A stretch of DNA of 20,778 bases from a virus, in the IMG/VR virus record IMGVR_UViG_3300037264_003480, positions 1 to 20,778 of that record, one strand, 5' to 3'. Each line of letters begins with the position of its first letter. Position 1 is the first letter of the stretch. The notes under the pieces are model-generated. The model was not told where the DNA came from. It saw only the letters and a list, made by a program, of their open reading frames with translations, and ran no database searches. This document shows positions 1,082-20,596 of the stretch, one piece after another. A program made the position numbers and the translations under genes.

Positions 1082-1280
1082 ATCCGGGGGAGAAATATGT
1101 GGGCTCTGCTTCAGAGGCGCCTGCCGTTCTGGAGAGGTGGCTTGTAGAGCCTGTATAGATGAAATGAATCAAGAGAGGGGTTATAATGTCAACCTGGATA
1201 CAGGCGAACTACAATATCTTAATCCTAATAGGAATAGCTGGGCTCATAGGCTACGTCGAACAGCACGTTTACAGAAATAA
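1044..1280 (+). CDS. Second small zinc-ribbon protein (C-x2-C-x11-C-x2-C)
   Basis: This frame gives a 78-residue protein if started at ATG 1044, and the frame is open further upstream to 951. Cys19, Cys22, Cys34 and Cys37, plus an extra Cys27, form C-x2-C-x11-C-x2-C, almost the spacing of the preceding gene, so the two may be diverged copies. The C-terminal half is polar and basic (NSWAHRLRRTARLQK). The start is uncertain: no good ribosome site precedes 1044. The gene overlaps the previous one by 38 nt and the next membrane-protein gene by 95 nt, which lowers confidence. In its favour, the cysteine pattern falls exactly where no other frame offers a good gene (1082-1185). Confidence 0.45.
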   Translation: MSAIETSSISPGKSGGEICGLCFRGACRSGEVACRACIDEMNQERGYNVNLDTGELQYLNPNRNSWAHRLRRTARLQK

Positions 1281-1578
1281 CTACAGGGACTATGGCTGGC
1301 ATTTCCTGGGGTTTTTCTCCCCCAGGTATCACCTCCCTAACTTTATCTCCTGGATGCTAGTCTGTAGTCTGGCAGATTATACTTGGTTTATAGGTATATT
1401 TGCCGTTATTGAGGATTTCTGCTACTTTCTTTTTCACCCGACCGATACCCTTGAGAAGGATGACTGGATCTGCCGTATGATGGGCTCTTTCTCAGTCTTA
1501 GGCCTCAGAATTCCCAATGCTTACCTTCTCGGGGGCGCCTTTTCCTACTTCCTTTACAAGATCCCATCATGGATATAG
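1186..1578 (+). CDS. Integral membrane protein, three predicted TM segments
   Basis: A 130-residue protein with a strong ribosome site (AGAGGGG) six bases before ATG 1186. Hydrophobic helices lie at roughly residues 9-24, 54-83 and 103-125. The second contains acidic residues within or beside the membrane (Asp64 and the pair Glu76-Asp77 in AVIEDFCYF), unusual for a simple anchor. The loop between helices 1 and 2 is rich in aromatics and His (YGWHFLGFFSPRYHLP). I do not recognise the family. The gene overlaps the following membrane-protein gene by 10 nt, so the two are probably translated together and may work as a pair. Possible roles are membrane enzyme, superinfection exclusion or lysis control, but none is demonstrated. 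Confidence 0.7.
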   Translation: MSTWIQANYNILILIGIAGLIGYVEQHVYRNNYRDYGWHFLGFFSPRYHLPNFISWMLVCSLADYTWFIGIFAVIEDFCYFLFHPTDTLEKDDWICRMMGSFSVLGLRIPNAYLLGGAFSYFLYKIPSWI

Positions 1579-1982
1579 GTCTGCATGTCATATTGCCTAC
1601 TCTAGCTGGTAAATGGGCCGGAATAACAAAGAAGTACCTTATAGCGATCGGAATTGGAGGGGCTACACCAGACCTTGTCTCAGGCCTGGAACACGTGCTG
1701 TTCTGGTCAGGTATCTGGGAACATAAATGGCTCCTCCGTAGTTATGCCCATTTCACCTACTCTCCCGATGCCTGGGCCATATTACTCCTTCTAGCCCCGC
1801 TATTCCTTCTCATTCCCAGATGGCTGGGGTTGGCATTTTATATAGGGTATGCCTTACATTTCTTTATGGACTATCTATGGCATGATCCGCTAGGTGGGTG
1901 GTATACCTGGGCAACGATCACTAACTACTCAATCTGGGGCTTATTAGTTATATATTATGTTTACCGTCTCCGTAAAGAGTAA
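1569..1982 (+). CDS. Membrane protein resembling DUF457/YdjM-type metal-dependent hydrolases
   Basis: A 137-residue protein with several hydrophobic segments (about 23-34, 69-83, 86-100 and 117-133). Polar residues of the kind that bind metal recur at segment ends: His6, Asp35 (ATPDL), His42, His52, His61 (RSYAHFTYSP), and His97-Asp101-His105 in ALHFFMDYLWHDPLGG. The last motif (H-x3-D followed by a Pro/Gly turn) and the RSYAH-SP segment resemble the YdjM/DUF457 family of membrane-bound metal-dependent hydrolases. I base this on motif resemblance only, and the family's classic HRGxTHS signature is not intact. No clear ribosome site precedes the ATG. It overlaps the preceding membrane-protein gene by 10 nt and the following TerS-like gene by 26 nt, so translational coupling is likely. 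Confidence 0.65.
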   Translation: MDIGLHVILPTLAGKWAGITKKYLIAIGIGGATPDLVSGLEHVLFWSGIWEHKWLLRSYAHFTYSPDAWAILLLLAPLFLLIPRWLGLAFYIGYALHFFMDYLWHDPLGGWYTWATITNYSIWGLLVIYYVYRLRKE

Positions 1983-2769
1983 AGAGTATGATATACTCAC
2001 AAAAGCAGAGGCCGATGAAAAGAACATCCCTTATACACACTGGTCGGTGGCGAAACCTGGGGATTTCGCGCTTTCAGATGATGGACATATTGCCCTATGC
2101 CTATCCAGAAAGACCTACGATGGAGATGATTTCTGCGTCTTCCCAACTACCAGGGGGTTCTATAAGCCTCGCGGGAAGTCAAAAAAGATCAACTTCATCG
2201 GGAATCAGACCTATTGGACAATATCCGGGGATAGCTGGGTTGAACATGAATCCAGAAGAGAGCGAACCAAGCGCATGGTTCAACTGTACGTTAAGATGTC
2301 TATGGCCGGGAAACTTGATCTTGCTGTACTTGGAAAGGTTTATAGGCCCGATCAAGCCATCCCCACTGCCACACTTAGACGGCTGCTAAAACAGGACAAG
2401 ATTAAACGCATGATAAGCGAAGAATTCGACAAGATACTTTCAGAAGTGGGTCTTACTGAGAGGTGGATTTTAGAGAAAATAAAAAAGGCGATGGAGATTG
2501 CGGAGAAGAAGGGTAATCCATTTGCCATGCTAAAGGGCACGGAGCAGCTCTCGGAGCTGCGGGACATGTTTCCAAAGACAAGGAAAATGGATATTCCTAT
2601 TGCTCTCGGTGTTACTCCGGAGCTTGTGGATGCCATGCAGAAGGCCGAGCGCGAACTGGGGGTAGGTAATGCTGAAGATAAGAAAAAAGAAGTTAACGCT
2701 TCTTATGAGATTGTTGACCCCCCAACATCAGAAATTGTTGGCGGAGAAACTGAGGGAAACAAGCCTTGA
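1957..2769 (+). CDS. Probable terminase small subunit with extra N-terminal domain
   Basis: This 270-residue protein lies directly upstream of the large terminase. Small subunits bind the packaging site on phage DNA and regulate TerL. Residues about 1-95 form a separate domain opening with ILTKAEADEKNIPYTHW and then KPGDFALSDDGHIALC, a pattern I associate with uncharacterised phage proteins. Residues about 130-215 are helical. The segment GLTERWILEKIKKAMEIA, followed by AMLKGTEQLSELRDMF, resembles the central helices of small terminase subunits, where the protein oligomerises. The C-terminal 50 residues are acidic and probably flexible. No helix-turn-helix is obvious. The ATG at 1957 overlaps the preceding gene by 26 nt and lacks a strong ribosome site, so the true start may differ. 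The assignment rests on position plus helical pattern. Confidence 0.6.
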   Translation: MFTVSVKSKEYDILTKAEADEKNIPYTHWSVAKPGDFALSDDGHIALCLSRKTYDGDDFCVFPTTRGFYKPRGKSKKINFIGNQTYWTISGDSWVEHESRRERTKRMVQLYVKMSMAGKLDLAVLGKVYRPDQAIPTATLRRLLKQDKIKRMISEEFDKILSEVGLTERWILEKIKKAMEIAEKKGNPFAMLKGTEQLSELRDMFPKTRKMDIPIALGVTPELVDAMQKAERELGVGNAEDKKKEVNASYEIVDPPTSEIVGGETEGNKP

Positions 2770-2848: not shown

Positions 2849-3017
2849 AACGATATATGATGTTGATTTAATAGGTGTCCCATACTGTACGACATGCTAC
2901 ATATCCGCTCTCCCGCTATTCCCCGTGAAAGATTCCGATACAGCGGCCAATGTCAGGATGCCGGGCTCTGAGCCGCTTCTTCCTATTCCCATTACTTTGC
3001 CGATACTGATAGCCTGA
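2766..3017 (+). CDS. Third small zinc-ribbon protein (C-x2-H-x13-C-x2-C), TTG start
   Basis: An 83-residue protein starting with TTG at 2766, whose start overlaps the stop of the previous gene (TTGA). A ribosome site GAGGGA lies eight bases before the TTG, which decides this start. GTG at 2820 is an alternative giving 65 residues. Cys24, His27, Cys41 and Cys44 form a C-x2-H-x13-C-x2-C zinc-binding pattern (CPLH, then CTTC). The tail is Pro- and Leu-rich. The stop overlaps the TerL start by one base (TGATG), so it is almost certainly co-translated with terminase. A small zinc protein between the terminase genes could assist packaging, but this is inferred from position only. Confidence 0.6.
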   Translation: MTVELKSPKSTSRPSYEEVSWHRCPLHRTIYDVDLIGVPYCTTCYISALPLFPVKDSDTAANVRMPGSEPLLPIPITLPILIA

Positions 3018-4546
3018 TGAATAAGTACCTTCAATTCCATTCTCCGCAGCATAAAGATATGGTCCAAAAGCTGCTAGGGAATATACTGCTAATGGGAAGA
3101 ACGTGCCTCCCCAATATGTTTACTGTCCCCTCCCCGCCATTTCATAAGGATTTGGCTCGGGCGTTAACAGACCCGACCTTAAGAAAGATGATTTTCATAG
3201 CTCCCAGAGGCTTTGCTAAAAGCTCTATTGTGGCCTGCTTGTGGGTTATGTGGCACATTTTCTTGGAACCAAGGCCGAAGGTGGTGATCCTAGTATCCAA
3301 AACAGAGGGCCACGCAATCAGGCTTTTACTAACAATTAAGAATGCACTGGATTATTCGCTGCCGTTAAGAAATGTCTTCGGGTATTGGGGAGAACACTCA
3401 GCCAAACTATGGCGACAGAATGAGGTAGTTCTCAAAGATGGCACGGCAATTATCTGCCGGGGGACAGGCCAGCAGGTCGTAGGACTGAAACATGGCGACC
3501 AGAGGCCCACTCTTGTTGTTGTTGATGACCCGGAAGACATGGAGAATACAAAAACTGCCGAGGCAATGGAATATAACCTCAGATGGTTATTGCAGGCTTT
3601 GGCGCCCTCTTGGGATCCACAGAGAGGCAGGATATGCGTTATAGGCACTCCGCAGCATCAGAGGTGTATTGTCGAGACTCTCTATGATGCGGAAGGGTGG
3701 TATTCCAGGCGCTGGAAGGCCTTACTTGGTGAACCAATGGGTTCGGAAGGCAGCCTATGGCCGGAGTGGCATAATGTATCGGCTCTGATAAAGGAGAAGG
3801 AGTCCTTGGAGTCTATCGGTAGATTATCGTCATTCTACAGGGAGTATCAGTGCGAGATAGTCGGGGATGAGGATCAGCTGTTTAAACCTAACTACCTACG
3901 ATATTATGATGGCGTGCTCTTTCGATCTGGTAAGTATGGCTTTATGCAGCTTAAGGAAAAGAATGGGGTACAGATCCCGGCGCTTCAGCAGGTGGTCCCG
4001 GTGACAATATTTACCGGAATAGATCCAGCCAGTTCAACCTCCCAGACTTCCGACTACAGTACCATAGTGAGTGTAGCCGTAGACAAGGATATGAATCGGT
4101 ATATTCTTCCCTACTTTCGTAAACGTGTTACGCCCCTGGCCCTAGCAGACGCCATTCTTAGCTACGATAAGAAGGTCAAGGCTGATCGAACCAGGGTTGA
4201 GAGCGTTGGATATCAGGAAATGCTGAGGGAATTTCTTAGATCTCAGGCCTATATTCCAGGACTTGAAATAAAGGAGAACCCCAGAACACAGAAGAGTAAG
4301 CGTCTGGAATCTATGGAGCCATTCTTTTGTCGGGGGAAAATTCATCTTCTTAAGAATATGCAGGAATTAAAAGATGAGTTAATGCTGTACCCAAGAGGAA
4401 AACATGATGATCTCTTGGATGCACTTTATTATTCGATGAAGGGCAACTATCCGCCTACGCATGAATATGTAGAAAATGTAGGTAAATTCAGCGACGAAAA
4501 AGCCGAAGGTATTGAAAACGGCTTTGGCTGGCTGTTTGCTAATTAA
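3017..4546 (+). CDS. terL: Terminase large subunit (packaging ATPase and nuclease)
   Basis: A 509-residue protein with both catalytic halves of a phage large terminase, the motor that pumps DNA into the prohead and cuts it. The ATPase domain shows Walker A at 62-70 (APRGFAKSS), Walker B at 166-171 (LVVVDD) followed by Glu173, and the coupling motif VIGTP at 208-212. The RNase H-like nuclease domain shows Asp336 in TGIDPASS, Glu395 in RVESVG, and Asp464, Asp465 and Asp468 in GKHDDLLDAL. Length and domain order are normal, and all key acidic residues are present, so the enzyme should be active. The ATG overlaps the upstream zinc-ribbon stop by one base. A 23-nt gap separates it from the portal gene. 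Confidence 0.95.
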   Translation: MNKYLQFHSPQHKDMVQKLLGNILLMGRTCLPNMFTVPSPPFHKDLARALTDPTLRKMIFIAPRGFAKSSIVACLWVMWHIFLEPRPKVVILVSKTEGHAIRLLLTIKNALDYSLPLRNVFGYWGEHSAKLWRQNEVVLKDGTAIICRGTGQQVVGLKHGDQRPTLVVVDDPEDMENTKTAEAMEYNLRWLLQALAPSWDPQRGRICVIGTPQHQRCIVETLYDAEGWYSRRWKALLGEPMGSEGSLWPEWHNVSALIKEKESLESIGRLSSFYREYQCEIVGDEDQLFKPNYLRYYDGVLFRSGKYGFMQLKEKNGVQIPALQQVVPVTIFTGIDPASSTSQTSDYSTIVSVAVDKDMNRYILPYFRKRVTPLALADAILSYDKKVKADRTRVESVGYQEMLREFLRSQAYIPGLEIKENPRTQKSKRLESMEPFFCRGKIHLLKNMQELKDELMLYPRGKHDDLLDALYYSMKGNYPPTHEYVENVGKFSDEKAEGIENGFGWLFAN

Positions 4547-4555
4547 GGTTTTATT

Positions 4556-4570
4556 TAGTATATTATACTA
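4556..4570. repeat. AT-rich palindrome overlapping the portal start
   Basis: The bases tagtat-att-atacta form a perfect 6-bp dyad ending on the first base of the portal start codon, in the only gap between the terminase and portal genes. The portal gene lacks a clear ribosome site here, so the element could affect translation or bind a regulator. AT-rich dyads of this size can also arise by chance. Confidence 0.3.
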
Positions 4571-6804
4571 TGAAGGTATTCTCGCTCTTTAGTGGCAAAG
4601 AAGAAGATAACACACAGAAGACTAGCGCTTACCTGCAAAATGAGGAAGGAGAGCTTTCATACAGACTCCTAGAACGGTATAATACCTCAAGCAGGGCTAA
4701 CTGGCTCGAGGATTTTGCCTCCAGTTCTAACTTCAGGGCTGGTTACCAGTGGACTCAGGATGAAGAGGCCGAGCTCAAAGAGGAGGGTCTGCCGCCGGTA
4801 GTTGTCAACGTCATTCATCCATCGGTAGATCAAATAAAGGCGGCCATGACCGCCAACAACCCGCAATTCTCAGTTACGGGTGCGGAGGGAAGCGACCATA
4901 AGGTAGCCTCCATCTTCTCCGATGTGTTATCGGATATCTGGCGAAGCTGCGACGGTAAATCACAAACCCGCCAGATGATAGATGATTATATCATCGGCGG
5001 CAATGGGATTTATCTGGCTTATGTCGATCCAACCGGAGAAAACGGCCAGTCAAAAGTAAAGTTTGCAGCAATAGACCCACGGGATGTTTGGGTTGATCCG
5101 GATACCAAGGATTATCTTTACCGTGATGCTGCCCATATCCTGATAGGAAAGATTCTCACCTCCGAGCAACTCCAGCATTATTATTCTCAGTATGCCGAAG
5201 CGTTCCCCAAAATGGAAGAGTGTCATACGAACTCTTTATCTTCTTTAGGAGGAGAGGTTCGCACTGACGATCCTCAACTGCCCGCTACTGATCCAGAGGC
5301 GGTAAAATACTGCGTGATTGATCGCTATAGTCGCATCAAACATGTGGTGCATATAGTTCGCAATCCAGTTGATGGCAGTGAGTGGGAAATGAATGCTGAG
5401 CAGTTTCAGACCTTTTTGGGATCGAAGTTTCTGTATGAGATTACCGCTAACTCTCTGCCACAGCTTATTACAGATTCCGTAAAATTACGAGAGGCAATGG
5501 GATATGTGGAGAAGTTTGGTAATACGTTCCACTATGCGATTGATCCTAATGATAGGATGGGTAAGCCGCTTATTGTACCGGGAGAAGAAAACCCTGAGCT
5601 AGATTCTCAGCAAGGCATGCAGACGATCCCAGGATCAACCGTTAGACTCAATCCTGTTCCTGTTGCCGAGTTGATTAAGAAGCGGGTATTGGATTACGAA
5701 GAATTCGGAGATAACCGAATTAAGCGGGTATTCTCTATAGGAAGATTTGCGCTCTACACGGAAATTATGCCGGTAGAAGATCATGTAATAGTTCCGTGTA
5801 TTAATGGTTTTGGACGCTCTCCACATGGCCGCTCAGATGTAAAGATCGTTAGACCTCTACAGGTATACATAAATAAGCTGCGGGCTCTTATTCTTGTTCA
5901 TGCGGCTAACTCTGCTGGAGTAAAGCTTGCAATTCAACGTGGCTCTGCCGATGTGAACGAACTGCGGAAGCAGTGGAGAAGGGCTGGCACGGCGGTTATT
6001 GAGGTAGATATGGAGTTGGGAGCGCCAGTCCAGGTGGCTCCACCGCCATTGCCTAATGAGCTTTATCTGGATGAAGCTCGTATGAGGAGCGATATCCAGG
6101 AGATCCTGGGGACATACACCCTTTCTGCTGGTAACCCGGATGAGGCCCCGACCACCTATAAGGGCACGGTAGCTATTGATGAATATGGCCAGCGTAGGAT
6201 TAAGAATAAAAAAGACGAGGTAGAGGCAACTCTTACGCAACTTGCGTATATTCTTATCCGCCTTATTCAGGCTAACTATACAGAGCCAAGAATTATACGG
6301 CTGATTAGACCGAATAACACGACCTATTCGGCCAGGGTTAACTACCTTGAAGATCAGTCTGCTTTTGCTCCTAAGATTAATGATTTATCTGTTGGCCGGT
6401 ACGATGTTATCGTTGTCTCCGGCTCTATGCTGCCCGTTAATAGGTGGGCACGGTTTGAATATTATATGGCGCTTTACGAGAAGGGCGTCATAGATCGCCT
6501 TGAACTCTTAAAGCATGCTGAAATTGTCGATCCACAGGCTGTGGCTGAGAGAATGAGCGAGATAGAGATTCTACGCCAACAGCTTAATACTGCCATTGAC
6601 AAGATCAAGGATCTGGAGGGCGATCTGCAAACCGCAACCAGAGAAAGTATGCATGATCGTAAGCGGGTGGAAGTTGAAAAGTTTAAGTCGAGCATTTCTG
6701 GGCTCCGCCAGAAAGCTGAAGCCGCAACGGAAATATACACCAAACGGCTGGCCGACGAAGTTGCTCTTGCTGCAACCTCTGTTAAAGAGGATGGCAAAGA
6801 GTAA
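4570..6804 (+). CDS. Portal protein, P22-like
   Basis: A 744-residue protein that should form the dodecameric ring at one capsid vertex through which DNA enters and leaves. Its position directly after TerL and its length (P22 portal is about 725 residues) fit. The N-terminal third resembles P22-type portals: VNVIHPSVDQIKAAMTANNP (80-99), the segment around IIGGNGIYLAYVDP (141-154), and IDPRDVWVDPDTKD (168-181), where this family typically has a D-P-R/D-V-W turn. The last 90 residues are strongly charged and helical (IEILRQQLNTAIDKIKDLEG), a coiled coil consistent with a C-terminal barrel. The start lies 23 nt after the terL stop without a strong ribosome site. Confidence in portal identity is high, in the P22 subgroup moderate. 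Confidence 0.85.
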   Translation: MKVFSLFSGKEEDNTQKTSAYLQNEEGELSYRLLERYNTSSRANWLEDFASSSNFRAGYQWTQDEEAELKEEGLPPVVVNVIHPSVDQIKAAMTANNPQFSVTGAEGSDHKVASIFSDVLSDIWRSCDGKSQTRQMIDDYIIGGNGIYLAYVDPTGENGQSKVKFAAIDPRDVWVDPDTKDYLYRDAAHILIGKILTSEQLQHYYSQYAEAFPKMEECHTNSLSSLGGEVRTDDPQLPATDPEAVKYCVIDRYSRIKHVVHIVRNPVDGSEWEMNAEQFQTFLGSKFLYEITANSLPQLITDSVKLREAMGYVEKFGNTFHYAIDPNDRMGKPLIVPGEENPELDSQQGMQTIPGSTVRLNPVPVAELIKKRVLDYEEFGDNRIKRVFSIGRFALYTEIMPVEDHVIVPCINGFGRSPHGRSDVKIVRPLQVYINKLRALILVHAANSAGVKLAIQRGSADVNELRKQWRRAGTAVIEVDMELGAPVQVAPPPLPNELYLDEARMRSDIQEILGTYTLSAGNPDEAPTTYKGTVAIDEYGQRRIKNKKDEVEATLTQLAYILIRLIQANYTEPRIIRLIRPNNTTYSARVNYLEDQSAFAPKINDLSVGRYDVIVVSGSMLPVNRWARFEYYMALYEKGVIDRLELLKHAEIVDPQAVAERMSEIEILRQQLNTAIDKIKDLEGDLQTATRESMHDRKRVEVEKFKSSISGLRQKAEAATEIYTKRLADEVALAATSVKEDGKE

Positions 6805-7742: not shown

Positions 7743-9035
7743 ATGCCTGCTAAAAATTTAGGCGGAAGTGGCGTTCTCTATACGGATCGCCGGAACTTTT
7801 ATCTTTCGCCCAACGTAACGAAAGAGCTGTGGACGAGCGTTGCTCCGTTTACCACAATTATAGCCAATAGGCCGATTGTGACCGGACTCGCAGACCCACT
7901 GTTCAAAATGTTTGAACACCGAGATCCCTGGATTAAACAACAGGTAGCGGTTAACGATTCTTCTCCCCCGAACATCCTTGATGATGATACGGGAACCGTT
8001 GTAACGGTGGATAGTATTGTTGGCCTTGCCAGTCCCGTTGATTCCAGCTATGTCAACCTTGTCTTTGAGATATATGATTCGACTCTTGTAACTAAAAGGG
8101 GGACAGTGGTATGCACGGCGATCTCCGGTGCCGATTTAACAGTAAAGCCTCTTTATGCGGCTGCCATCCAGACAGCAGACAACGATGTTCTGCTCTGTCG
8201 GGGTAATGCCCAGGGAGAGGGATCGTCGGCTCCCGAAGCATGGGGCGATGAATTGCGGGTGGTCTGGGGCTCAACTCAGATTATGGAAACACCCGTGGAT
8301 ATCACCGGTACCCTGCTCAGGGCGGCTCTTCGCGGTTACTCCAACGAGCTTGCACGCCTTCGCATGATGAAGAACAAAGAGTTCAAAATGCAGAGGGAGA
8401 ATGGACATCTCTTTGGTGAATCGATCATCGGGACCAATCTCGATGTCGATGCTGCGGATACGTTCAGCGATGCGTTCCGAACCGATGCTAACGGAAAGAA
8501 GATCCGAACCAGCATGGGTCTTGTGACGGCCATTGAGCGTTACGGCAAGACTTCTGGCGATACTCAAAATCGTTTCACCATCACGGCAGCTTCCTATAAC
8601 TATGGGAACTTTGTCGATGATATGGAAAAGGTTTTTCAGTATTATCCCGAAGACGGTATTAAGTATGCACTCTGCGGTCCTGGGGCCATGAGCTACTGGT
8701 CCAAGATCTCGACCTCTGGATTTGCGGATAATAGTGGCTGGAAGGTGCAGCTGTCCGACTCTTTTAAGGATAAGCTGGGCTTTGCGATCCGCATGCTTGA
8801 AACTCCTCACGGAATACTTGCGCTTGTTCTGACCCCCGCTTTGCGAGGACCGCGGAATAAGAGCATGCTTGTTATCAGCGACTCTAATCTCAATATTGTC
8901 GAGTATGAGCCTCCGATGTACAAGACGAACATCAAAACTGACAATGCTTACAAGGGTGTCAAAGATGTTTATTTCTCTGATGAGGGTCTGGGCATGACGC
9001 TGATCGAAAGTCACCATATATTTAATGTCGTCTAA
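7743..9035 (+). CDS. Major capsid protein, HK97-fold, SU10-like
   Basis: A 430-residue protein following the scaffold, of the right length for a major capsid protein. The segment from about residue 175 (LRVVWGSTQIMETPVDITGT) followed by an amphipathic helix with many charged residues (ELARLRMMKNKEFKMQREN) and GHLFGE resembles the SU10-type family (DUF5309), where a T/E-x-V-x-V-T/S-G-T strand precedes the long spine helix. The family assignment is by pattern memory, so moderate. No signal or delta-domain cleavage site is visible. It has a strong ribosome site (AAGGGA) before ATG 7743. A GC hairpin lies 18 nt after its stop and may stabilise the transcript end, as expected for the most abundant virion protein. 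Confidence 0.85.
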   Translation: MPAKNLGGSGVLYTDRRNFYLSPNVTKELWTSVAPFTTIIANRPIVTGLADPLFKMFEHRDPWIKQQVAVNDSSPPNILDDDTGTVVTVDSIVGLASPVDSSYVNLVFEIYDSTLVTKRGTVVCTAISGADLTVKPLYAAAIQTADNDVLLCRGNAQGEGSSAPEAWGDELRVVWGSTQIMETPVDITGTLLRAALRGYSNELARLRMMKNKEFKMQRENGHLFGESIIGTNLDVDAADTFSDAFRTDANGKKIRTSMGLVTAIERYGKTSGDTQNRFTITAASYNYGNFVDDMEKVFQYYPEDGIKYALCGPGAMSYWSKISTSGFADNSGWKVQLSDSFKDKLGFAIRMLETPHGILALVLTPALRGPRNKSMLVISDSNLNIVEYEPPMYKTNIKTDNAYKGVKDVYFSDEGLGMTLIESHHIFNVV

Positions 9036-11079: not shown

Positions 11080-11842
11080 TATGGTTGAGACCATTCAGAG
11101 CTCTCATCCCGGTAAGTTCCTTGCACGAATACAGTTTGATCTTAACGACGCCTTGAGAGTATTTTGCATAGAAACCCGCATCTTAGGCACGAGAGCAAAG
11201 GTAAATGCGGTTACTGATAAAGTCTCTGAAGACCTCGTTAAAAATATAACTCGATTTGCCCTGCCAGCAGACTTTCACGAGCTGGTTAAAGTAGATGAGC
11301 TATATAAAGACAATATGCTGATTAAGCAGGGCTACCTGGAAATCTTTGCATTCGATAATGCTTTAACAGAAATGTGGATGGATTATTCTGCATTGCCGAC
11401 ACTTTTAGTGTTTGAGGCCGACTCACCGGGTATGCCGGAGGAATTTCATAGGGCTCCGCTCTGTTCGGTAATGAAACAATATTATGCCGATGCAGGAGAC
11501 TTACCAAGGGCTCAGTACTGGAGTAAAGAATACTCTGATCTGTATAAGAGCGCCCTTCGCTATTCTAATACCAGGCCGTACAGACTTTTAAATACCTTAG
11601 GAGGTGCAAGCAAAGTGAAGCAAGCTTGGGCAAGGGGCGTTTCCCTGGTAGCCGGGAAAAATACCATTCCTACAAATTTAACATTTACTAATAATCTGTA
11701 CGCCTTAGTTTTTAATGGCAACGGGGTAGACGTACAGGCTACCGACCCCGTAACTGGTTTACCGGATAAAACAACCACGACGTTTGCCGTCTGGGCTGCA
11801 ATCGCAACTTCGCAGTTCGAATGGATAGCAAGCGGAAATTAA
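11066..11842 (+). CDS. Head-to-tail adaptor-like protein
   Basis: A 258-residue protein overlapping the previous gene by 14 nt with an excellent ribosome site (GGGGGGAGG) before ATG 11066. Its features recall phage adaptor proteins that sit under the portal: an N-terminal helix containing LARIQFDLNDALRVF, a TRFALPADFHELVKVDELY turn (about 72-90) like the 'yaLPaDf' motif of such proteins, and a helical pair near LCSVMKQYYADAGDLPRAQY (142-161) followed by KEYSDLYKSALRYSN. The C-terminal 70 residues are beta-rich and Thr/Ala-rich. SU10-type phages carry a comparable adaptor at this position. The family link is by motif memory and position. Confidence 0.55.
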   Translation: MTLLNMVETIQSSHPGKFLARIQFDLNDALRVFCIETRILGTRAKVNAVTDKVSEDLVKNITRFALPADFHELVKVDELYKDNMLIKQGYLEIFAFDNALTEMWMDYSALPTLLVFEADSPGMPEEFHRAPLCSVMKQYYADAGDLPRAQYWSKEYSDLYKSALRYSNTRPYRLLNTLGGASKVKQAWARGVSLVAGKNTIPTNLTFTNNLYALVFNGNGVDVQATDPVTGLPDKTTTTFAVWAAIATSQFEWIASGN

Positions 11843-11856
11843 CCATAGGAGAAACA

Positions 11857-12051
11857 ATGTTTAATCTTACTACAAAGAATACGACCGTTCTTGGCATTGC
11901 AATGATTATTACGGCTCTTTCGAGCGCAGCAGCCGCTGTCTTTGATGGAGAGCTGACTACCGAGGTGGATTTTGCGTCGCTTATTGCCGCCTTATCTGGT
12001 GGCGTTGCTTTAATGCGAGTTAAAGTAGAGCCTGTTCCGCCCACTGCCTAA
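11857..12051 (+). CDS. Holin candidate, two TM segments
   Basis: A 64-residue protein starting at ATG 11857, chosen over the in-frame ATG at 11821 because AGGAGA lies just before 11857 and 11821 lies inside the previous gene. It has two hydrophobic helices (TVLGIAMIITALSSAAAAVF, about residues 9-29, and FASLIAALSGGVALM, about 40-54) separated by a short acidic turn (DGELTTEVD) and a basic/proline-rich tail. This is the architecture of class II holins, which open the inner membrane at lysis time. Its stop overlaps the start of the peptidase gene by one base (TAATG), a typical holin-endolysin pair. Confidence 0.65.
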   Translation: MFNLTTKNTTVLGIAMIITALSSAAAAVFDGELTTEVDFASLIAALSGGVALMRVKVEPVPPTA

Positions 12052-12434
12052 TGGCGGGGTATTTGCTAAAGGAGGGAGTTCCTATTAAGGAACTTTCTCC
12101 CATAATGCTGAATGCTCTGGAAAGGCTTGCTCTTATCTGGCAAGCCTTCTTTCCGGACGTAGATCAAGAGATGGTGGTAACTTCCACCTACGAGGGACAT
12201 CGTGGGGATGGTGTCCATAAAATGACCAGCTTTCACTATGACAAGAAGGCGGCTGACTTGAGAAGCCGCCATGTTATACGGTCGCGTGCCAAGGAAAAGT
12301 TTTGCCCCGCTGCTCGTCTGTGTCTCGGGGAAGATTTTGACGTGGTTTACGAGACACATCCAATACATATTCATGTGGAATATGACCCAAAAGAAAATCA
12401 AACTTCCGGACCCGGAATACATTCCACTGTCTAA
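12051..12434 (+). CDS. Endolysin, M15-type zinc peptidase
   Basis: A 127-residue protein immediately after the holin candidate. It shows the metal-binding layout of M15-type (VanY/hedgehog-like) peptidases: Ser60-x-His62 and Asp69 (TSFHYDKKAAD) followed by His106-x-His108 near the end (HPIHIHVEYD). Arg51 in GHRGDG lies where family members often have an arginine. Such enzymes cut the peptide stem or cross-bridge of peptidoglycan. There is no signal peptide, so release would depend on a holin, and no separate cell-wall-binding domain. At 127 residues it is a minimal catalytic unit. No ribosome site is visible, so translation probably couples to the TAATG overlap. The last 53 nt overlap the next gene. 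Confidence 0.75.
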   Translation: MAGYLLKEGVPIKELSPIMLNALERLALIWQAFFPDVDQEMVVTSTYEGHRGDGVHKMTSFHYDKKAADLRSRHVIRSRAKEKFCPAARLCLGEDFDVVYETHPIHIHVEYDPKENQTSGPGIHSTV

Positions 12435-20230: not shown

Positions 20231-20596
20231 ATGCCGGACTCGCTCTTCATGGAACAGGCGCACGAACTCACCCATGAGGTGTTTTTCTTTATTGTGCCGA
20301 TTCTACTGATGTTTTTTCTCAAATCATTTGTAGAGGAAATAGTGGGTGGGTTGCTCTGGAAGTGGAGGTCTGGCTATGACGAGGACGATCTGGTGAAGCT
20401 TAATGGTGACTGGGCGAGAATCGTTCACATCGGGCTGTTCAGATCGAAGTTCTACGTTTACGTCATCAATGCGCGGGATGAAATTGTCGGTGGGTATAAA
20501 ATGTCGGTCTTGAATAACGAACTGAGGAAAATGACCCTGAAAGAACCGTTAAATCTCATCGACATCCCAAAGAACCTAAGAAAAGTTACCAATTAG
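20231..20596 (+). CDS. Small membrane protein resembling an MscS pore helix plus beta domain
   Basis: A 121-residue protein. A hydrophobic helix at about 17-32 (FFFIVPILLMFFLKSF) continues into EEIVGGLLWKW, then YDEDDLVKLNGDWARIVHIG (49-68) and a strand-rich end reaching LNNELRK (94-100). This order parallels the last pore helix and beta domain of small mechanosensitive channels (MscS), where 'GD-V-i-G-xG-V--I' and a final 'pN' motif occur. Only the core is present, with no N-terminal membrane helices. Function is unproven: osmotic valve, lysis helper or inner-membrane tether are possible. A weak ribosome site precedes ATG 20231, which stands 34 nt after the fibre stop. Confidence 0.55.
   Translation: MPDSLFMEQAHELTHEVFFFIVPILLMFFLKSFVEEIVGGLLWKWRSGYDEDDLVKLNGDWARIVHIGLFRSKFYVYVINARDEIVGGYKMSVLNNELRKMTLKEPLNLIDIPKNLRKVTN

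Follow-up and report, generated by a model that had tools for sequence, protein, structure and literature searches.

A putative distant relative of YdjM and an orphan hydrophobic protein encoded by overlapping genes upstream of a viral terminase

Two overlapping genes for small hydrophobic proteins lie just ahead of the terminase genes in the IMG/VR virus record IMGVR_UViG_3300037264_003480, raising the question of whether they encode a coupled pair of membrane enzymes, as a sequence-only reading of the locus had proposed, and what such a pair might do in infection. The window, i.e. the whole stretch of DNA analysed, is the complete record of 20,778 bases, which is itself probably a fragment. 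The relevant features are as follows.

1186-1578, plus strand: ORF1, an orphan hydrophobic protein of 130 aa; notable are D64, within a hydrophobic stretch, and the segment E76-D77-F-C-Y-F-L-F-H-P85
1569-1578, plus strand: 10-nt overlap of ORF1 and ORF2, consistent with translational coupling
1569-1982, plus strand: ORF2, a 137-aa hydrophobic protein, putatively a distant YdjM or Zn-dependent phospholipase C-like protein, with H6, P34-D35, H61, G93 and H97-x3-D101-x3-H105
1957-2769, plus strand: small-terminase-like ORF (PF03592, E 0.012, under the cut-off), with relatives upstream of the large terminase in other contigs
3017-4546, plus strand: large terminase subunit (phrog_38, E 4.4e-76; PF17289, E 1.3e-6)
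4570-6804: portal (phrog_156, E 4.4e-53)
7743-9035: major head protein (phrog_1328, E 1.1e-6)

The gene pair and its setting

The coordinates, frames and 10-nt overlap of the pair agree with the sequence-only reading, as does its placement upstream of the terminase, with the small-terminase-like ORF and then the large terminase following 3' of ORF2. The left end of the window holds one leftward ORF (3-212), positions 229-847 are free of ORFs of at least 50 aa, and a rightward gene block begins at 848; ORF1 and ORF2 lie within this block, immediately 5' of the small-terminase-like ORF, which ORF2 overlaps by 26 nt. Direct inspection of the sequence revealed a purine-rich stretch, GAGAGGGG, upstream of the ORF1 ATG and no clear ribosome-binding sequence upstream of that of ORF2. 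A Bacteroidota host is suggested by three ORFs in the window (9668, 16387 and 18523), because each has a signal-peptide-like N-terminus ending in ...AQ or ...SQ.

Mean hydropathy is 0.41 for ORF1 and 0.55 for ORF2, in keeping with the proposal of two membrane proteins; however, the profile of ORF2 has a single strong 19-residue peak (residues 70-89, 2.14), its three further maxima reaching about 1.0. The maxima of ORF1 are at residues 11-29 and 57-75. D64 falls inside the second of these and E76-D77 just past it, matching the earlier description of an Asp and a Glu-Asp in or beside a transmembrane helix. ORF2 carries His at positions 6, 42, 52, 61, 97 and 105 and Asp at 2, 35, 67, 101 and 106, and the H-x3-D-x3-H motif reported for it is present as HFFMDYLWH (H97 to H105).

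Whether both ORFs are genuine genes was examined through codon usage and chance expectation. With the full codon score, the value of ORF1 is reached by 124/930 out-of-frame stretches and that of ORF2 by 98/930, while only 2/186 in-frame stretches are equally low in either case. With a synonymous-codon score, 79/372 (ORF1) and 133/372 (ORF2) out-of-frame stretches reach the ORF, and 11/186 and 6/186 in-frame stretches, respectively, are equally low. Codon usage thus marks neither ORF as coding; an odd amino-acid composition may account for the full-score result, but not for the synonymous-codon one. This, together with an alternative frame (951-1280) that has CxxC pairs and overlaps the start of ORF1, speaks for one or both ORFs being spurious. 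Against it, composition-matched random sequence yielded, over 40 simulations, an average of only 0.1 ATG-initiated ORFs of at least 130 aa on the plus strand per 20.8 kb, and never more than 2, compared with the two found here in tandem, and ORF2 carries a protein-family signal that is absent from ten control sequences (see below). We therefore regard spurious genes as highly improbable.

The alternative frame, on the plus strand, carries a CxxC...CxxC arrangement (ICGLCFRGACRSGEVACRACIDE), and the ORF that precedes it (848-1081) likewise has two CxxC pairs. These are possibly two tandem zinc-ribbon-like pieces, which might belong to one gene expressed by way of a frameshift or an unusual start.

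Similarity of ORF2 to YdjM

In a Pfam scan of nine proteins from the window (E up to 10), ORF2 returned two matches only. The better one is to PF00882, the Zn-dependent phospholipase C family (E 4.6e-4, 20.6 bits, under the curated cut-off of 26.8), and is a partial-domain match that places residues 76-123 on profile positions 58-116. The other is to PF04307, the YdjM inner membrane protein family, which we take to be DUF457/COG1988 (E 0.18, 11.7 bits, under the curated cut-off of 29); here, profile positions 1-111 fall on residues 1-106. A genome search with PF04307 scored ORF2 at 8.9 bits against the same cut-off. No match was obtained in PHROGs (E up to 1) or NCBIfam (E up to 10). None of the ten controls, comprising a reversed copy of ORF2 and nine shuffles that keep its hydrophobic pattern, matched PF00882 or PF04307, and the best match of any control to any Pfam family had an E value of 0.19.

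We then compared ORF2 with five YdjM proteins, namely that of E. coli and four phage proteins that a tblastn search with it retrieved, from SA 1306 Kay (E 3e-15), SP-15 (E 1e-6), G (E 5e-5) and Quantum (E 0.2), the last of which was retained for its PDID, HRTLTH and GYASHIVAD motifs. A profile of the five gave ORF2 6.8 bits and ORF1 -2.0 bits; of 3000 shuffles that preserved the hydrophobic pattern, 2911 received a score, and 13 of these equalled or exceeded that of ORF2, the highest being 10.1. Profile-profile comparison, along the lines of a check that the sequence-only reading had suggested, gave a low P value for YdjM against ORF2 (hhalign: P 0.0025, 50 columns including GYxxHxxxD) but a probability of only 11.7 %, while swapped pairs used as controls returned P values of 0.46 and 0.55. 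In a search with ORF2 against the 12,753 stop-to-stop stretches of 159 loci, YdjM proteins took the first, third and fourth ranks (three of the five; E 2.5-3.7), although a chance frame ranked second and all YdjM matches had E values above 1. The local YdjM-ORF2 alignments span residues 55-104 only; H6 and D35 are positioned by a forced whole-length alignment and the weak Pfam match.

Invariant in all five YdjM proteins are a Pro-Asp, the two His of HRxxTH and, in GxxxHxxxD, the Gly, His and Asp. The last motif is present in ORF2 as G93-Y-A-L-H97-F-F-M-D101, such that the H-x3-D noticed earlier aligns at the H-x3-D position of YdjM itself. The Pro-Asp, which contributes the first Asp of PDxD, corresponds to P34-D35 in the whole-length alignment only, and the second Asp is absent (PDLV); this Asp occurs in four of the five YdjM proteins and is replaced by Cys in that of SA 1306 Kay (PDIC), and so does not appear to be strictly required. 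A His near residue 6 is shared by ORF2 (H6) and by four of the five YdjM proteins as annotated, the phage G frame having its His before the annotated start. In the HRxxTH region, where YdjM proteins have two His, ORF2 has a single one (H61). The resemblance to YdjM/DUF457 hydrolases thus held up as a distant similarity, with every score under the curated cut-offs and one HRxxTH His missing. We do not assign ORF2 to the YdjM family but regard it as distantly related, and it may act as a membrane hydrolase of the YdjM type.

ORF2 (137 aa) is smaller than E. coli YdjM (196 aa). In the Bacillus phages SP-15 and G, the YdjM-like proteins carry the annotation metal-dependent hydrolase and resemble ORF2 in being phage-borne and small and in having Pro-Asp and GxxxHxxxD; in contrast to ORF2, they are clearly related to E. 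coli YdjM by tblastn. No annotated terminase lies within about 1.5 kb of either gene, and the neighbours are mostly unnamed or hypothetical. PMC2912341 lists the SMART model of the Zn_dep_PLPC family as secreted with a signal peptide, whereas ORF2 is very hydrophobic. The parts of the literature retrieved by our search gave no established function for YdjM-type membrane proteins. Cap1, considered as a DUF457 phage protein, proved to be DUF4579, which is unrelated.

The AlphaFold models, each built from a single sequence, were of too low a quality to be informative for either protein (ORF2: all helical, pLDDT 61.5, pTM 0.31; ORF1: pLDDT 52.3). With the low-confidence ORF2 model as query, a search of viral folds returned 18 hits within E 10, of which none reached 0.001, and a sequence search of solved structures returned nothing for ORF1 or ORF2 at E up to 10.

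ORF1 and the EDFLWF proteins

ORF1 is an orphan with no sure relatives: it has no match in Pfam (E up to 10) or NCBIfam, and its best PHROG has an E value of 0.54. A motif, EDFLWFxxNP, that resembles the ORF1 segment VIEDFCYFLFHP (E76-D77-F...P85, or EDFxxFxxxP), was used as a pattern query and led to a family of small hydrophobic proteins. A scan of viral DNA returned 11 stretches, two of which (L016 and L019) are real members, 145-aa hydrophobic proteins with the motif; a further pattern gave five stretches with the same two real members, and a third gave at least 119 stretches, with no new relative among the matches listed. Three more viral members (L031-L033) were found by an alignment search, and tblastn with one of the two 145-aa proteins added relatives in plasmid records, three from Caballeronia and one from Burkholderia. 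A genome-contig scan with an alignment of two members found none. Pfam gave no match for any of the six members tested (two at E up to 10, four at E up to 1), nor did NCBIfam for the two tested there. Eight sequences share invariant E, GWA, LPT, TGYH, ED, WH and W positions.

In the three Caballeronia records, the family gene (at 3965-4474 in one plasmid, L025) has a glycosyltransferase gene on one side and a dual-specificity phosphatase gene on the other, with YdcF coming after, and the glycosyltransferase of the one record tested matches MGDG synthase. The family may represent an undescribed lipid or glycolipid enzyme. By eye, sugar-transfer-like ORFs are found near the gene in L032 and L033. 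Hydrophobic proteins of 184 aa (L016, 7984-8538, reverse strand) and 175 aa (L031, 6108-6635) are encoded near it in two other viral contigs and appear by eye to be related.

ORF1 could be a far relative of these proteins, making the pair a module that modifies lipid or glycolipid, a reading that overlaps with our preferred one. Support comes from the setting of the Caballeronia genes and from an hhalign comparison of VIEDFCYFLFHP with the family segment LIVEDFLWFVVNP (P 7.4e-4, probability 25.7 %, 22 columns), and ORF1 scores 9.6 bits against the family profile, a value reached by 1 of 1995 scored full shuffles. However, the motif match was selected, as the motif had served as the query; when the motif was preserved, 58 of 2000 shuffles attained the same score, and with the motif masked ORF1 falls to -1.0 bits, reached by 794/1995 shuffles. 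The EDFxxFxxxP motif and the small hydrophobic character are shared, but the other conserved blocks of the family, EIE(G), GWAxxLPT, TGYH, WHxxW and Y-W, are absent from ORF1 or reduced to a possible YH. We treat the link as a lead only, because the motif was the search term, and consider this descent unlikely. The earlier suggestion that ORF1 is a second enzyme accordingly keeps a hint from one motif, the remainder of the protein being without signal.

Occurrence and possible role of the pair

The sequence-only reading had proposed coupled membrane enzymes and named conservation of the pair across phages as a check; a conserved coupled pair found no support in the searches made. Neither ORF has a convincing relative in 159 other loci; viral-contig scans with both ORFs and a genome-contig scan with ORF2, all based on exact short peptides and able to detect close relatives only, found none. 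At E up to 10, tblastn gave no match for ORF2 in phage and plasmid records or for ORF1 in plasmid records. A phage match to ORF1 (E 2) was rejected, being antisense to annotated Arthrobacter phage genes, and a DNA pattern for G(Y/F)xxHFxxDxxxH returned four stretches, none of them real.

Relatives of the window's large terminase occur in seven viral contigs, and relatives of the small-terminase-like ORF precede the large terminase in L003 (E 2.6e-35), L002 (2.4e-34), L005 (1.6e-14) and L006 (4.4e-11). DNA upstream of that ORF is visible in three of the seven, namely L002 (54 % identity in the large terminase; about 9 kb upstream), L005 (41 %; about 1.7 kb) and L006 (41 %; about 0.95 kb). In all three, searches for ORF1 and ORF2 (E up to 5; the upstream DNA is short in two) and for PF04307 (E up to 1) came back empty. 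Upstream in L002 there are two short ORFs, one of 61 aa and one of 68 aa; in L005 there is one of 191 aa that, judged by eye, has two hydrophobic segments towards its end. ORF1 and ORF2 thus do not belong to a fixed module among these contigs, and from this absence we read the pair as probably accessory cargo lying close to the beginning of the packaging operon.

Our preferred, if tentative, reading, to which we give a probability of roughly 40 %, is that ORF2 is a small, diverged phage protein of YdjM type. Its H6, D35, H61, H97 and D101, perhaps with H105, would be brought together from separate helices around a single metal ion, allowing the protein to hydrolyse a phosphate-bearing membrane substrate. 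ORF1 would be a translationally coupled orphan membrane protein that assists or accompanies ORF2, and the pair, accessory cargo placed between the control region and the genes for packaging, would target the envelope of the host at a late stage of infection. The observed part of this scheme is the similarity of residues 55-104, with the GYxxHxxxD stretch, to YdjM, along with the N-terminal His and the Pro-Asp that line up when the whole length is aligned; the metal, substrate, partnership and timing are predictions, and so are the roles in lipid modification, the envelope or phage DNA entry that the sequence-only reading had put forward. The bolder version, in which a YdjM-like hydrolase and an EDFxxF-type enzyme of an undescribed kind form a two-gene module that remodels a host membrane lipid or lipid carrier late in infection, strikes us as improbable.

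The leading alternative is YdjM-like descent with catalysis lost, the pair then altering the host membrane without chemistry, e.g. to exclude other phages. That ORF2 keeps a single His in the HRxxTH region, whose two His never vary among the five YdjM proteins, argues for this, as do the small size of the protein and the lack of relatives in our searches. The missing second Asp of PDxD points the same way but is weak evidence, because one of the five YdjM proteins, that of SA 1306 Kay, lacks it too, and the remaining His and Asp of ORF2 do fall at family positions; we think loss of catalysis somewhat unlikely. A role in lysis, as a holin or holin partner, would suit small hydrophobic proteins with overlapping genes in a packaging-gene operon. 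Yet neither ORF matches a holin or lysis family in PHROGs, Pfam or NCBIfam, and a likelier candidate cassette lies elsewhere in the window, where a small hydrophobic ORF (11821-12051) adjoins a possibly peptidase-like one (12051-12434), making lysis quite an unlikely function for the pair.

The second ORF of that cassette (plus strand, 127 aa) resembles the Hedgehog N-terminal domain (PF01085, E 4.5e-4, under the cut-off), a fold common to bacterial peptidases. Although neither cassette ORF matches a lysis family, the 127-aa product may be an endolysin next to a small hydrophobic partner.

At present, the pair stands as a distant homologue beside an orphan. A minimal phage version of YdjM with fewer ligand positions would help to show which residues the core needs, and, if the pair does alter host lipids, this would be an uncommon late function for a phage. 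Towards the right end of the window, a 121-aa ORF (20231-20596, plus strand) has a weak match to NifZ (E 0.0049, under the cut-off).
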